NCBI GenBank assembly: GCA_029862125.1
Contig: JAOTXY010000016.1
Location: 1 to 55,109, forward strand
DNA: 55,109 bases
Direction: 5' to 3'
Source of the DNA: Gammaproteobacteria bacterium
GTDB taxonomy: Bacteria > Pseudomonadota > Gammaproteobacteria > GCA-001735895
A program made the position numbers and the translations under genes. Under the pieces are notes generated by a model, which saw only the letters and a list, made by a program, of their open reading frames with translations, had not been told where the DNA came from and did no database searches. How positions within the stretch are numbered: position 1 is the first letter of the stretch; each line of letters begins with the position of its first letter. Positions 31,466-35,638 of this stretch are shown piece after piece.

Positions 31466-32461
31466 ATGCCGATAGATCTCACTACCAAGAAGATAATCAT
31501 GATTCACGGCCTGGCCTCCAAGCCACCGCGGAATCAAACGCACCAGTTATGGCGCCGTACCCTGACCGAAAATATCCGCGTCAGTCATCGCCGACTCGCG
31601 CGCAGCCTCGACGCCAATCCCGAGGTGTTCGAGTCCGCTTACTGGGCCGACGTGGTACCTCACCATATTCCTGACGATGCCGGCTACACCAAAAAACTGC
31701 AGCTACAGGTAGACAAGGTCATCGCCGAACGGCGGAAAATAAAAGACAAATTCCATGTCGGCATGGGTGAAAAAGTATCCGGATTTTTCAAGGATCGCGG
31801 CGTCGACCTGGTGAAGTTGCTGGCCGGTGCATTGACGGTCAAAGACAACGTCATGAACAATTTTCTGCGCGAGACCGAGCTCTACGACACAGACCAGTAT
31901 ATTGCCGATCAAATGCGCGCACCGCTCGAAAACGCGCTACGCCGTGCCTGGGATGAAGGACGCGAACCCGTCGTCGTTGCACACAGCATGGGCAGCTTTA
32001 TCGGCTATGACGTGCTGTGGCGGTTTTCGCATCGTAAAACTGCCGGCTTTAAAATCTACAATAAAAAACGGGTGAAAATGTTTATCACGATGGGCTCACC
32101 GCTCGGTGATTCGGTGGTGCGGGATTTGCTGTTCGCCAAACATCACAAGTCTTATAGCCCGCGATGGTTTCCAACCAATATTGATTTTTGGCACAACTAC
32201 GCCTGCCTTGGTGACGTGGTCTCGCATCAGAGAAATTTCGATACCGAATTTTATGAACCGATGCGCAAGTTGAAGTTATTCCCGAAAAAACCCAGATTTC
32301 GCACCATCGATTATGTCGATTTACACAATCCATTCGAAGTCGTGACTCACTCCGGGAATCGCAAACGGGAAAAACGCAACCCGCACAAGTCCTATGGTTA
32401 CCTGGCGCAGCCGCGACTGGGTAGCTGGATTGCGGATTACCTGCTGGATCGATTGCGTTAG
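31466..32461 (+). CDS. Alpha/beta-hydrolase-fold protein
   Basis: 331 residues. IMIHGLASKPPRN (oxyanion HG loop) and VVVAHSMGSFIGYD (nucleophile elbow, Ser of AHSMG) identify a serine hydrolase. Candidate Asp/His partners lie in the C-terminal half (CLGDVVSHQRN, DLHNPFEVVTHS). A basic insertion (about 75-125) with KVSGFFKDRGVDLVKLL may be a lid. There is no signal peptide. Substrate unknown; lipase or esterase activity is a family-level guess. It lies 64 nt after the MetE-like gene. Confidence 0.7.
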   Translation: MPIDLTTKKIIMIHGLASKPPRNQTHQLWRRTLTENIRVSHRRLARSLDANPEVFESAYWADVVPHHIPDDAGYTKKLQLQVDKVIAERRKIKDKFHVGMGEKVSGFFKDRGVDLVKLLAGALTVKDNVMNNFLRETELYDTDQYIADQMRAPLENALRRAWDEGREPVVVAHSMGSFIGYDVLWRFSHRKTAGFKIYNKKRVKMFITMGSPLGDSVVRDLLFAKHHKSYSPRWFPTNIDFWHNYACLGDVVSHQRNFDTEFYEPMRKLKLFPKKPRFRTIDYVDLHNPFEVVTHSGNRKREKRNPHKSYGYLAQPRLGSWIADYLLDRLR

Positions 32462-32511: not shown

Positions 32512-34074
32512 TCAGGAGTAAGTGTCAAAACTGCAAATCCGGTTACGCCCGCTTTGCTTTGCCTGGTAAAGGGCAATATCCGCCTGCTCTATCAACAAGG
32601 TGCTGCTTTTATCGTAGATCGGCAACATAGCCGCTACGCCGATACTGACGGTTACATAGGGCGAAACGCTTGAGGTAACGTGTGGCAATTTTGCATCCTC
32701 GACCGAGCCAAGGCATTCTTCAGCAACCTTTATTGCACCTTCTAAGTCAGCCGCAGGCAGCAAGGCAATAAATTCCTCGCCACCGTATCGCGCAATCAGG
32801 TCACCTGTACGCTGCATGCAATCACTCAGAATTTTCGCCACCGCGACCAGGCACTCATCGCCACGCAAGTGACCGTGGTGGTCATTGTATTCCTTGAATT
32901 TATCAACATCGATCATCAGCAATGCCAATGACTGTTCGGCGCGGGCGCTGCGACTCCATTCAGCCATCAGTCGCACATCAAATTCGCGTCGGTTACAAAT
33001 CGATGTCAACGCATCGACGCGGGCAATATTGTTAAGTTCCTGCTGCGATCGACGGGCCTGCAAATGCATGTTCAATCGTGCCCGCAACACCCTGGGATGA
33101 AACGGCCGGGCAATGAAATCGGCGGCACCTGACTCAAACGCCTGCACTTCGGCCTCGGTGGTTTTGTCATCGGAAATAAAAACGACCGGAACCACGGTAT
33201 CAAGATCAGAATCGGTCGAATTACGCCACCAGTCGGTGCTTTCGATGCCACCGATTAATGCCGTATTCACCAGCACCAGGTCCGGCATCCCGTGATCTAA
33301 CGCCGAAGCCACGAGCCCTTTGAAATTCGCGGCGACTTCCACCTGGACATCGCGCATTTGCTCTATGATCATTTGCAGACTCTGCACATCGTCATCGAGC
33401 ACCAGCATCCGCTGCATCGCGGGCTGCTCGCAGACTGCTTTCGAGCTGTCGTCGGAGATCATCGAGCCGGTTTTCAGAAATGCATCCAGTTCGGATTCCA
33501 GCGGAAAGCCGATGACCAGTTCACCCTGGTCGCTGATAACGATGGGTATATTGCGGTCAAATTCACGATTGCCATCCCACTGGGTTTGCCATTTAGCCAG
33601 TTCCTCATCCTGACGGGCGTCATCCTGGGGCGGCTCGATACCCAGTTCTTTAAGTAGCGCGGCGAGCAGTTCCGGATCAGAAATATCCTGGCCGTCGAGC
33701 CACAAGGCGCGAAATATGCGTCGGCGCAACTGGCTTGCCCTGGCGGGATCACTTTTATTAACCGTGTTGAACAGCGTCGAAGCAGCCGCCGAGTTGGGGC
33801 GAAACATGGGGACGTTAATCCGGGTTGACGGTGCCTTGCGGCGTACCTCAGCGACCTCGGTCACGAGTTCGCTAAGGACTTTGAAACCCGCCTGTTTGCT
33901 GGAAACGGATGGGGCATGCTGAATACTGCGAAATTCAACCTGGTCTTCCAGGTCCATCGCATGTAGACGTTCATTTAACGCGTAACAGAAAGGACAGTTA
34001 AAATCGGCGTACACGGTGAAATTACCAACACCCGACTCGCCTGACTGCGCCCCTGCTTGTGATGCATTTCCCAT
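32512..34074 (-). CDS. DsbA-like thioredoxin fold + degenerate receiver + GGDEF diguanylate cyclase
   Basis: 520 residues with three domains. Residues about 17-205 form a DsbA/FrnE-type thioredoxin fold with active site CPFC (27-30). Residues about 222-340 form a receiver domain whose acidic cluster is kept (DDD 227-229), but the phosphoacceptor Asp is Asn (LVLVN270) and the conserved Lys is Arg (ARPFHP). Residues about 350-515 form a GGDEF domain with GGEEF (431-435) and an inhibitory-site RTGD (422-425). Predicted to make c-di-GMP under control of thiol redox or a bound partner rather than phosphorylation. No signal peptide or membrane helix is seen. Confidence 0.88.
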   Translation of the reverse strand: MGNASQAGAQSGESGVGNFTVYADFNCPFCYALNERLHAMDLEDQVEFRSIQHAPSVSSKQAGFKVLSELVTEVAEVRRKAPSTRINVPMFRPNSAAASTLFNTVNKSDPARASQLRRRIFRALWLDGQDISDPELLAALLKELGIEPPQDDARQDEELAKWQTQWDGNREFDRNIPIVISDQGELVIGFPLESELDAFLKTGSMISDDSSKAVCEQPAMQRMLVLDDDVQSLQMIIEQMRDVQVEVAANFKGLVASALDHGMPDLVLVNTALIGGIESTDWWRNSTDSDLDTVVPVVFISDDKTTEAEVQAFESGAADFIARPFHPRVLRARLNMHLQARRSQQELNNIARVDALTSICNRREFDVRLMAEWSRSARAEQSLALLMIDVDKFKEYNDHHGHLRGDECLVAVAKILSDCMQRTGDLIARYGGEEFIALLPAADLEGAIKVAEECLGSVEDAKLPHVTSSVSPYVTVSIGVAAMLPIYDKSSTLLIEQADIALYQAKQSGRNRICSFDTYS

Positions 34075-34321: not shown

Positions 34322-35638
34322 ATGACCTTGAAGCGACTAATCCTGCCGATTGCAATCGTTACCCTGTTGACGCTTGTGTTGTACTGGTTGGTTGCATCGC
34401 GACTACTGCTGGACCCGCCTGATACTACCTCGTCACCCGATACCTCCACGAACTCGGCAGAAGTCGTAAAAACCGAATTCGAACCAGTCGTAACCGCTGC
34501 AGTCGAACCTGCCACCAATGCCGCGAGTATTAGCGAAGACAGTGGCCGCCGGGGAAGCTCGAAACTGGTCGAAATATTCGGACGCGTACTGGACCCGGAA
34601 CTGCAACCTGTCGACGACGTTTTCATTACCGAAGAACGCTATTTCTTCAATACGCGCAGTGACGCGGAGGGCAACTACAGGATCTCATTGAACTTGCCCC
34701 AGCATCGCTATCCAACGCTCAATTTTCTGCGCCACAAGTTCAATGGCAAACGCATCAAGCTTACAAAAGAGCTATTACAACAAAAACAATCATATGAGCT
34801 CAACGTCATACTTGAGGATAATCCCGACACGGTCAAACTATCGGGCTGGGTTGGCAACGAGCTCGGCGTTGCACTCGAGGGCGCGCGAGTCGAACTCACC
34901 GCGCAGGAAGTGTTTGACGGGGAAAATTTTTACCTGACCGTGTTTTCAGATCCCCGGGGTAATTTTCAACTTGACGGTGTTCGGGTTGCGGAAAAATACA
35001 GGCTATCGGTAAACCTGGCGCCCGAGTATCCCGTTTTCCTGGACCCCGATTTCAGTGTCAGTCTCAATCCACAACCGCTTAACATCGAGCTTAAGTCTCT
35101 CAAGTTTGTCGATATCGACGGCATGATAATGAATCGGGAAGCCGCCCCGGTAGCCGACTTTGAGATCTATGTCAGCAATGTTACGACCGGGGTGCACTCC
35201 GGCAAAATCGTCAGCGACTCTTCCGGATTTTTTTCGCTCAAGCACTTCCCGGTAGGTGAAATCAGCCTGGCAACCCGTGGTTCCGATATCTATGAAATTA
35301 CCGGCCTGGTATTGACCGACAACGAGTACCAGAACCTGCTATTGACAATCGACAGGGGCAACCAAAACCTGACCGGGTGGATCAAGGGAGAAAACGGCAT
35401 CGTACCCCAACGCGCGATGGTGACACTGGATCAAACCTTGCTCGATGGCCAGATCAGGTATCATCAATACCGCTCGCAAGCCACCGACATCGATGGCAGG
35501 TTTACCTTTAGCAATCTCGGTAGCGGCGAATATCGAATCACAACATACGCGCAGGGCTACCAGAAACAGGAATTGATGCACCGCCTGCGTAGCCGGTCTG
35601 ACGAAGTCCAGGTCACGCTGCGGCGCCTCGAAGACTGA
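34322..35638 (+). CDS. Membrane-anchored protein with carboxypeptidase-regulatory-like repeats
   Basis: 438 residues. One N-terminal membrane helix (LPIAIVTLLTLVLYWLVA), a Ser/Thr/Pro-rich spacer (34-75), then about four beta-sandwich repeats of the CarboxypepD_reg type. Typical lines are GRVLDPELQPVDDVFI, GWVGNELGVALEGARVELTA, GNFQLDGVRV and GRFTFSNLGSGEYRI. It probably faces the periplasm and could bind protein or polysaccharide. No catalytic residues are seen. It diverges from the GGDEF gene across a 247 nt AT-rich gap with TATAAT at 34313-34318, near its start. Confidence 0.7.
   Translation: MTLKRLILPIAIVTLLTLVLYWLVASRLLLDPPDTTSSPDTSTNSAEVVKTEFEPVVTAAVEPATNAASISEDSGRRGSSKLVEIFGRVLDPELQPVDDVFITEERYFFNTRSDAEGNYRISLNLPQHRYPTLNFLRHKFNGKRIKLTKELLQQKQSYELNVILEDNPDTVKLSGWVGNELGVALEGARVELTAQEVFDGENFYLTVFSDPRGNFQLDGVRVAEKYRLSVNLAPEYPVFLDPDFSVSLNPQPLNIELKSLKFVDIDGMIMNREAAPVADFEIYVSNVTTGVHSGKIVSDSSGFFSLKHFPVGEISLATRGSDIYEITGLVLTDNEYQNLLLTIDRGNQNLTGWIKGENGIVPQRAMVTLDQTLLDGQIRYHQYRSQATDIDGRFTFSNLGSGEYRITTYAQGYQKQELMHRLRSRSDEVQVTLRRLED

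Follow-up and report, generated by a model that had tools for sequence, protein, structure and literature searches.

A recurrent fusion of a DsbA-like domain, a pseudo-receiver and a GGDEF domain as a predicted diguanylate cyclase with a possible cytoplasmic thiol input

What signal would set the output of a diguanylate cyclase whose receiver lacks the phosphoacceptor aspartate and is preceded by a DsbA-like thioredoxin-fold domain? The question is raised by a gene in the window, as the whole analysed stretch of 55,109 nucleotides from a gammaproteobacterial contig (JAOTXY010000016.1) is called here. The original prediction described the gene as a fusion of a DsbA domain, a degenerate receiver and a GGDEF domain, considered that a phosphorelay input looks impossible, and proposed that c-di-GMP synthesis may be gated by thiol redox state or by a DsbA-like substrate, an unusual coupling. 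To our knowledge, the signals sensed by most diguanylate cyclases are largely open. For pseudo-receivers, the abstract of PMC12632262 states that the switching mechanisms "remain a mystery". A soluble protein in which the input domain is naturally fused to the receiver and the cyclase offers a test case for pseudo-receiver control.

The fusion was confirmed as an exact, intact open reading frame at 32512-34074 with three Pfam domains; it lies on the minus strand, which had not been stated. In the 520-aa protein, DSBA (residues 21-152, E 3.4e-12), Response_reg (224-334, E 4.9e-8) and GGDEF (351-512, E 7.2e-48) all score above the Pfam cut-offs, and all three domains were modelled by AlphaFold2 with good confidence (full-length pLDDT 86.2, pTM 0.66). 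The best Foldseek matches of the full-length model were PA3702 (3bre), which we take to be WspR, P. syringae WspR (3i5a), DgcR and PleD, with the top rows covering about 300-330 columns, and none of the 50 matches listed was described as a DsbA-receiver-GGDEF protein. Among the 25 NCBIfam families listed for the whole protein, the general GGDEF domain model was the sole one to pass its cut-off and no named cyclase did so; the DsbA subfamily, too, has no curated NCBIfam name. An assembly or reading-frame artefact can be set aside, because other genomes of the genus contain 19 further full-length frames with 54-96% identity (second copies counted), and because the surroundings recur: either or both window neighbours adjoin the gene in 17 of the 21 own-genus loci examined. 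At L060, L062, L063 and L065 neither was detected; of these loci, L062 is short, and L063 and L065 are second copies. The shared neighbours point to vertical inheritance of the gene. On one side stands a convergent gene (31466-32461, plus strand) with weak hydrolase matches below the cut-off, and on the other a divergent gene (34322-35638, plus strand) with carboxypeptidase-regulatory-like repeats; there is no operon partner in the window, and the gene is therefore probably transcribed on its own. The 520 residues include no stretch that looks like a membrane span or a signal (the 19-residue Kyte-Doolittle mean peaks at 1.42, at residue 466, and reaches 0.68 near the N-terminus), and therefore the DsbA domain is predicted to be cytoplasmic, as GGDEF domains are. 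A periplasmic DsbA oxidase is not what the sequence describes, as the protein has no hydrophobic N-terminus and is fused to GGDEF. It reads as a soluble diguanylate cyclase with predicted activity, and its features are collected in Table 1.

Table 1. Features of the fusion gene and its product, with positions in the window
Feature	Position	Strand	Basis
Whole gene, DsbA-like / pseudo-receiver / GGDEF protein	32512..34074	minus	ORF, 520 aa plus stop, ATG start
DsbA/FrnE-type thioredoxin-fold domain with helical insertion, residues about 18-205	33460..34023	minus	Pfam DSBA, AF2, Foldseek
CPFC, Cys27-Pro-Phe-Cys30	33985..33996	minus	sequence; alignment of fused proteins
Pro177, presumed cis-Pro of the thioredoxin fold	33544..33546	minus	invariant in alignments A1, A2, A3; role by analogy
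Pseudo-receiver domain, residues about 220-338	33061..33417	minus	Pfam Response_reg, AF2, hhalign
Asn270 at the phosphoacceptor Asp position	33265..33267	minus	sequence, alignment
Arg323 (RPF) at the conserved Lys position	33106..33108	minus	sequence, alignment
Helix 327-352 joining receiver and GGDEF	33019..33096	minus	AF2 secondary structure
GGDEF domain, residues 351-512	32539..33024	minus	Pfam 7.2e-48; Foldseek matches WspR, DgcR
RTGD, RxxD product-inhibition site, residues 422-425	32800..32811	minus	sequence, alignment
GGEEF active-site signature, residues 431-435	32770..32784	minus	sequence, alignment

The N-terminal domain belongs to the PF01323 fold, as judged from its score (47 bits against a cut-off of 25.6), the CPFC motif, Pro177 and the fold search. 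AlphaFold2 applied to 56 DsbA-domain sequences gave a mean pLDDT of 88.4 and a pTM of 0.84, and the 10-residue blocks between residues 21 and 200 reached 89-98, with one block at 79. In the Foldseek comparison of this domain with the PDB, GST kappa came first (3rpp_A, E 6.5e-8, TM 0.63), followed by HCCA isomerase (3fz5) and FrnE (5xwh, 5co3), then YjbH bound to Spx (6gho_B, E 2.1e-5) and, lower, DsbM (5hfi, E 2.6e-4). A profile search of the PDB sequences placed FrnE at the top (8.9e-6). FrnE, DsbM, GST kappa and HCCA isomerase thus share the fold with its helical insertion, FrnE being a distant sequence match; what sets the present subfamily apart from them is a DFNCPFCYAL-type motif, the fusion to signalling domains or frequent location beside them, and the replacement of Cys30 in some members. 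Position 27 is Cys in all 60 fused proteins that cover it, whereas position 30 is Cys in 51 of 60 and Ser in nine, with at least four changes in a quick tree built without that column. Trp125, Trp162, Trp166 and Pro89 are further invariant residues. Patterns used in the contig scan contained DFNCPF[CS]Y, and cysteine conservation was judged mostly on the genome-search rows instead. The CPFC motif was found as originally read, but as an obligatory redox switch it was rejected, owing to the Cys30-to-Ser replacements. A reactive Cys27 fits these counts better than an obligatory CxxC disulfide switch, since only the first cysteine is kept throughout. The conservation pattern points to single-cysteine chemistry, or to binding, and thiol-disulfide exchange by the window domain is a putative activity. 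Another DsbA-fold match in the same genome (C59), which by resemblance we take to be an HCCA-isomerase-like protein, carries SPFA instead of CPFC and was set aside as no kin of the subfamily.

At the other end of the protein, the output domain has the marks of a diguanylate cyclase: a GG[DE]EF signature, the GGDEF fold and an RxxD site. The GGEEF and RTGD motifs are intact, in agreement with the original prediction, and c-di-GMP synthesis by the window protein is predicted from them. The first Glu of the signature is Glu or Asp in 57 of the 61 fused rows that cover the site, and 60 of 61 retain RxxD, the remaining one having RxxE. The helix between receiver and GGDEF is presumed, by analogy with WspR and PleD, to be a dimer or signalling helix. 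Second copies with the same three domains were observed in three own-genus genomes, G028, G021 and G011 (L032 = L065, L033 = L063, and L034, respectively). These paralogues have lost the signature (GGGSF, RGGSF and KGGMF) and keep RxxD; L194, from another group, is similar to them, with GGNEV. The signature-less own-genus paralogues could possibly be c-di-GMP receptors instead of cyclases.

The middle domain is a receiver by fold: in hhalign comparisons with three receivers of other proteins, the own-genus domain reached 97.7% and that of the other lineages 98.0%, and the two matched each other at 99.5%. Pfam Response_reg was not called in L128, L165 and L194, the three fusions from outside the genus that were scanned and extend to the receiver. 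Of the phosphorylation quintet (DD, D, T/S, K) the window protein keeps three of five residues, Asn270 and Arg323 being the differing ones, as had been read earlier. The complete quintet is present in none of the 62 fused proteins compared (23 own genus, 39 other lineages), and each of the 39 keeps at most three residues. In this 62-row alignment, L053, L055, L061, L063 and L065 stand for their genome-search twins; L207 (same as L070), L073, L076 and L122 (near-copies), L094 (= L206), L187 (unknown bases), fragments below 300 aa and a repeat of the G012 match were dropped; L206 is a 443-aa frame and L014 ends after residue 298 at a contig end. A phosphorelay input is therefore unlikely, but the word "impossible" was too strong: Asp occupies position 270 in six of 23 own-genus rows, three of which also have Ser301 and Lys323, and Asn in receivers can deamidate to Asp according to a section of PMC4395418. 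Asp is also found at the equivalent of position 270 in seven of the 39 rows from outside the genus. Within the genus, all six Asp270 rows have Lys, Arg, Asn or Ser at 228 in place of an acidic residue, and all ten Asp228 rows carry Asn270. Asp270 and Asp228 are thus mutually exclusive in the 16 own-genus rows with either, as raw counts over related rows.

The architecture is real and recurrent, and it is little described. In its own order, the DsbA part was detected in 23 of 41 genomes, all of them among the 31 of the own genus and none among the ten of two other genera. The whole fusion could be read in 17 of these 23, was cut by contig ends in five, and was split in one (G012, contig C25; L029/L035), where the orthologue forms two overlapping frames of 119 and 423 aa, which may reflect a disrupted copy or an error in the sequence. 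In the Aliamphritea family, a marine one, DsbA profile matches occur in 45 of 116 genomes, 44 with a frame of 501-565 aa and Aliamphritea spongicola (G1304) with one of 443 aa; all 30 frames read, out of 51 long ones, are fusions. Fusions are also present in Halieaceae, Pseudomaricurvus (three matching genomes of 120 in its family) and Pseudoalteromonas, and in a single genome from yet another group. The A3 profile matched 26 of 369 genomes of the class sample at E 1e-12, of which five belong to the subfamily (E < 1e-30: three of the own genus, G097 with a fusion and G121 with a stand-alone copy); the other 21 score E 7.7e-18 or weaker, and the 15 with loci look FrnE-like. With the narrower A1 profile, a single genome of the 398 in the phylum sample matched at E 1e-8, namely that of the window. 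In Nitrospira, 64 of 79 genomes match, and the open frames are roughly 184-257 aa long; across its phylum, 41 of 198 genomes match, 38 at E < 1e-37. In the phylum of the L104 genome, eight of 140 match at E 1e-12, and for three of these E lies below 1e-37. The 79 loci retained from the contig scan come, among others, from the Olavius algarvensis Gamma 3 endosymbiont, from Halieaceae and Pseudoalteromonas denitrificans and, in many cases, from Nitrospira, and nothing with the DsbA part was found among the viral contigs scanned.

The relationship of fused and stand-alone copies was examined in a quick tree of 88 DsbA domains with SH-aLRT as the sole support. A branch with SH-aLRT 99 divides the fusions, together with the Nitrospirota copies and three further stand-alone ones, from 16 rows labelled FrnE-like from motif and score, a separation that sets the subfamily apart from FrnE proper; the 37 fusions form one group with support of 81, and support is 99 for the own-genus group and likewise for the Nitrospirota group. 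Several branches are long, including those of the stand-alone copies L104, L127 and L188, whose placement is unsure. Of the 47 stand-alone loci scanned, 46 of them from Nitrospirota, 32 have a hybrid kinase encoded upstream in the same orientation, and none was found in the other 15; the distance from the kinase stop to the opening of the DsbA frame is 3-136 nt in 31 loci and 460 nt in L119. Pfam resolved the kinases of L107 and L113 (Nitrospira) as PAS-HisKA-HATPase-REC. A hybrid kinase accompanies the DsbA gene in all 30 of the best-scoring loci from the 64 Nitrospira genomes with the gene, and in six of 11 further Nitrospirota loci, the remaining five having none. The synteny in Nitrospira partly reflects common ancestry and does not amount to many independent events. 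The Nitrospirota copies that were read carry CPFC.

Comparable arrangements exist elsewhere, in two unrelated genomes. In G121 (L127:3768-7152) the DsbA gene overlaps a PAS-HK-REC gene, which is followed by REC-HD-GYP (HDIGK, HHE, GKGYP); the stand-alone protein has no Pfam match and was placed by the A3 profile (E 3.1e-32). In G1124 (L239:4234-5963) the DsbA gene is followed by a PAS-HisKA_2 kinase whose possible GTG start overlaps the DsbA stop (GTGA). G1105 (L187) has a Ser/Thr kinase domain fused ahead of the DsbA-like domain; Pfam calls kinase and DSBA only, and receiver-like and GGDEF-start-like sequence was read by eye behind them, before unknown bases. Its second copy is a DsbA / middle domain / GGDEF protein with GGNEV. 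For the stand-alone L104, no kinase was recognised from a listing of its neighbours. The kinase-adjacent copies suggest a dedicated signalling module. More broadly, the cytosolic DsbA-fold subfamily with the DFNCPFCYAL motif may be a general sensory module, fused to pseudo-receiver-GGDEF, fused behind a Ser/Thr kinase, or encoded beside or overlapping histidine kinase genes, in which one conserved cysteine would couple the thiol chemistry of the cytoplasm to c-di-GMP and two-component signalling; this generalisation is put forward tentatively, as a proposal slightly more apt to fail than to hold. A linkage of the Nitrospira loci to HD-GYP phosphodiesterases was considered and dropped, as the three DUF3391-HD genes tested are without HD-GYP motifs. 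Such genes lie ahead of the kinase in L077, L105 and L119 (Pfam) and in L091, L095 and L096 (BLAST), and an HD-GYP-type gene lies on the opposite strand in L075 and L087 (Pfam; HHE and GSGYP seen) and L089 (BLAST only).

For the window protein, input through the DsbA-like domain is likely on the sequence evidence, and we infer redox gating of the cyclase. In the scheme favoured here, the DsbA-like domain would be the sensor, and Cys27 would react reversibly with a thiol-bearing ligand. This could be glutathione or another small thiol, an oxidant, or a cysteine belonging to a partner protein. Cys30 may help as a resolving cysteine where it is present; single-cysteine chemistry, as a mixed disulfide, a glutathione adduct or partner binding, would probably suffice. 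The Ser residues that replace Cys30 show that some members do without a CxxC disulfide. The change would be relayed via the pseudo-receiver, retained as a dimerisation unit in the style of WspR and PleD, and via the connecting helix; the dimer geometry would thereby set c-di-GMP output, which c-di-GMP bound at RxxD would cap. In other bacteria, the same sensory module would act as a separate protein encoded beside histidine kinases. The scheme is consistent with the nearest folds (GST kappa, HCCA isomerase, FrnE and, lower, DsbM), all of proteins that use glutathione or work on thiols, and with the conserved Cys27, the incomplete receiver quintet and the linkage of stand-alone copies to signalling genes; the normally reducing state of the cytoplasm, the missing operon partner in the window and the stand-alone loci that show no kinase count against it. 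Taken as a whole, it is a possible reading to which we give a little less than an even chance. Of the gating originally proposed, the DsbA domain stands as a conserved candidate input, while the obligatory CPFC disulfide switch does not.

The main rival to this thiol-based scheme is an adaptor role without redox chemistry, in which the DsbA-like domain would bind a protein or a non-redox ligand, Cys27 would be structural or part of the binding site, and a partner would switch the cyclase. YjbH is an adaptor for Spx, and the YjbH-Spx complexes among the Foldseek matches are in line with such a role, as are the Cys30 replacements in nine of 60 fused proteins, the invariant Trp and Pro residues, which may form a binding surface, and the stand-alone copies beside kinases, which could be partner subunits. 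Retention of Cys27 in all 60, CPFC in the Nitrospirota copies and the thiol- and glutathione-using enzymes among the closest folds argue the other way, and we regard an adaptor as rather unlikely, if a serious contender. The same DsbA domain weighs on the view of a constitutively active enzyme whose control lies only in its expression and in product inhibition at the I-site. Such control would agree with the almost universal I-site and with the missing operon partner in the window, but the DsbA domain is well conserved and has stayed with GGDEF across distant lineages; it is considered improbable.

Ordinary or weak phosphoreceiver control, with the DsbA domain incidental, would draw on a deamidated Asn or on the Asp270 relatives. 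The Asp residues in six of 23 and seven of 39 rows, three of the former with Ser301 and Lys323, and the deamidation noted in PMC4395418 lend it something; against it stand the full quintet in 0 of 62 rows, the exchange between positions 228 and 270, in which all six own-genus Asp270 rows miss the second acidic residue and all ten Asp228 rows have Asn270, and the three or fewer residues kept in the 39 other rows. It appears very improbable. A reversed flow, in which c-di-GMP or GTP on the GGDEF part would control a thiol-disulfide reductase as the true output, is held to be just as improbable: three own-genus paralogues and one outside protein did lose the GGDEF signature while keeping RxxD and the DsbA domain, but the first Glu/Asp of the signature is kept in 57 of 61, and the CxxS members could hardly be dithiol reductases.

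WspR, PleD and DgcR, among the best matches with solved structures, share with the window protein a receiver fold, a long helix and a GGDEF domain with an I-site; the window protein differs in its N-terminal DsbA/FrnE domain, which replaces the phosphoreceiver input, and in its incomplete phosphorylation site. The WspR receiver relays a dimerisation change to GGDEF. PleD also holds a pseudo-receiver, and its receiver acts through dimerisation (a passage of PMC12632262). Disulfide-based control of c-di-GMP turnover is reported for HmsC/HmsD and for the CSS domain of PdeC in part of PMC8846402, in the main text of which "thioredoxin" has no match. These systems have thiol/disulfide control in common with the proposed scheme but sense in the periplasm, whereas the window domain is of the DsbA fold, predicted to be cytoplasmic and fused to the cyclase. 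If the scheme is true, c-di-GMP output would come under cytoplasmic thiol control, unlike those periplasmic cases (PMC8846402), and a DsbA-type domain may report thiol state or a thiol partner to cells. The input domain, with one conserved and possibly reactive cysteine, provides natural CxxC and CxxS variants as ready-made probes, and the stand-alone homologues beside histidine kinases would make the same sensor accessible in two signalling systems.

Leptospirillum belongs to the phylum that holds Nitrospira. Its TFP8 is described, in a portion of PMC7084401, as a predicted cytoplasmic thiol-disulfide oxidoreductase with its gene beside a GGDEF gene; by this description it resembles the window fusion in the pairing of a thioredoxin fold with a diguanylate cyclase, but the two are separate genes there and a single fusion here. 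Literature on DsbA/thioredoxin with GGDEF, on redox-controlled cyclases (best 25 of 90) and on Neptuniibacter DsbA yielded no description of the DsbA-receiver-GGDEF family, and that on Nitrospira, DSBA and histidine kinases none of a DsbA-like gene downstream of a PAS-HK-REC kinase. The coupling had been called unusual; a family description was indeed not found, but the architecture is not unique, given its presence in the Aliamphritea family and a protein mentioned in 2015. In that protein, from Neptuniibacter caesariensis, a DsbA module is joined to a Cys-ALR in one chain (a section of PMC4395418). By this description it is like the window fusion, a DsbA module with an aspartate-less receiver in a marine bacterium, and it is possibly a member of the same family. 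The mention is a passing one that does not state GGDEF as part of the protein, and the section is without a family, a tree or a kinase linkage for it beyond the Cys-ALR receiver tree; an enrichment of ALRs with GGDEF is reported in the same paper. One Aliamphritea-family fusion, L214, has a Cys aligned to position 270 and is thus of the Cys-ALR type named there for N. caesariensis (PMC4395418).
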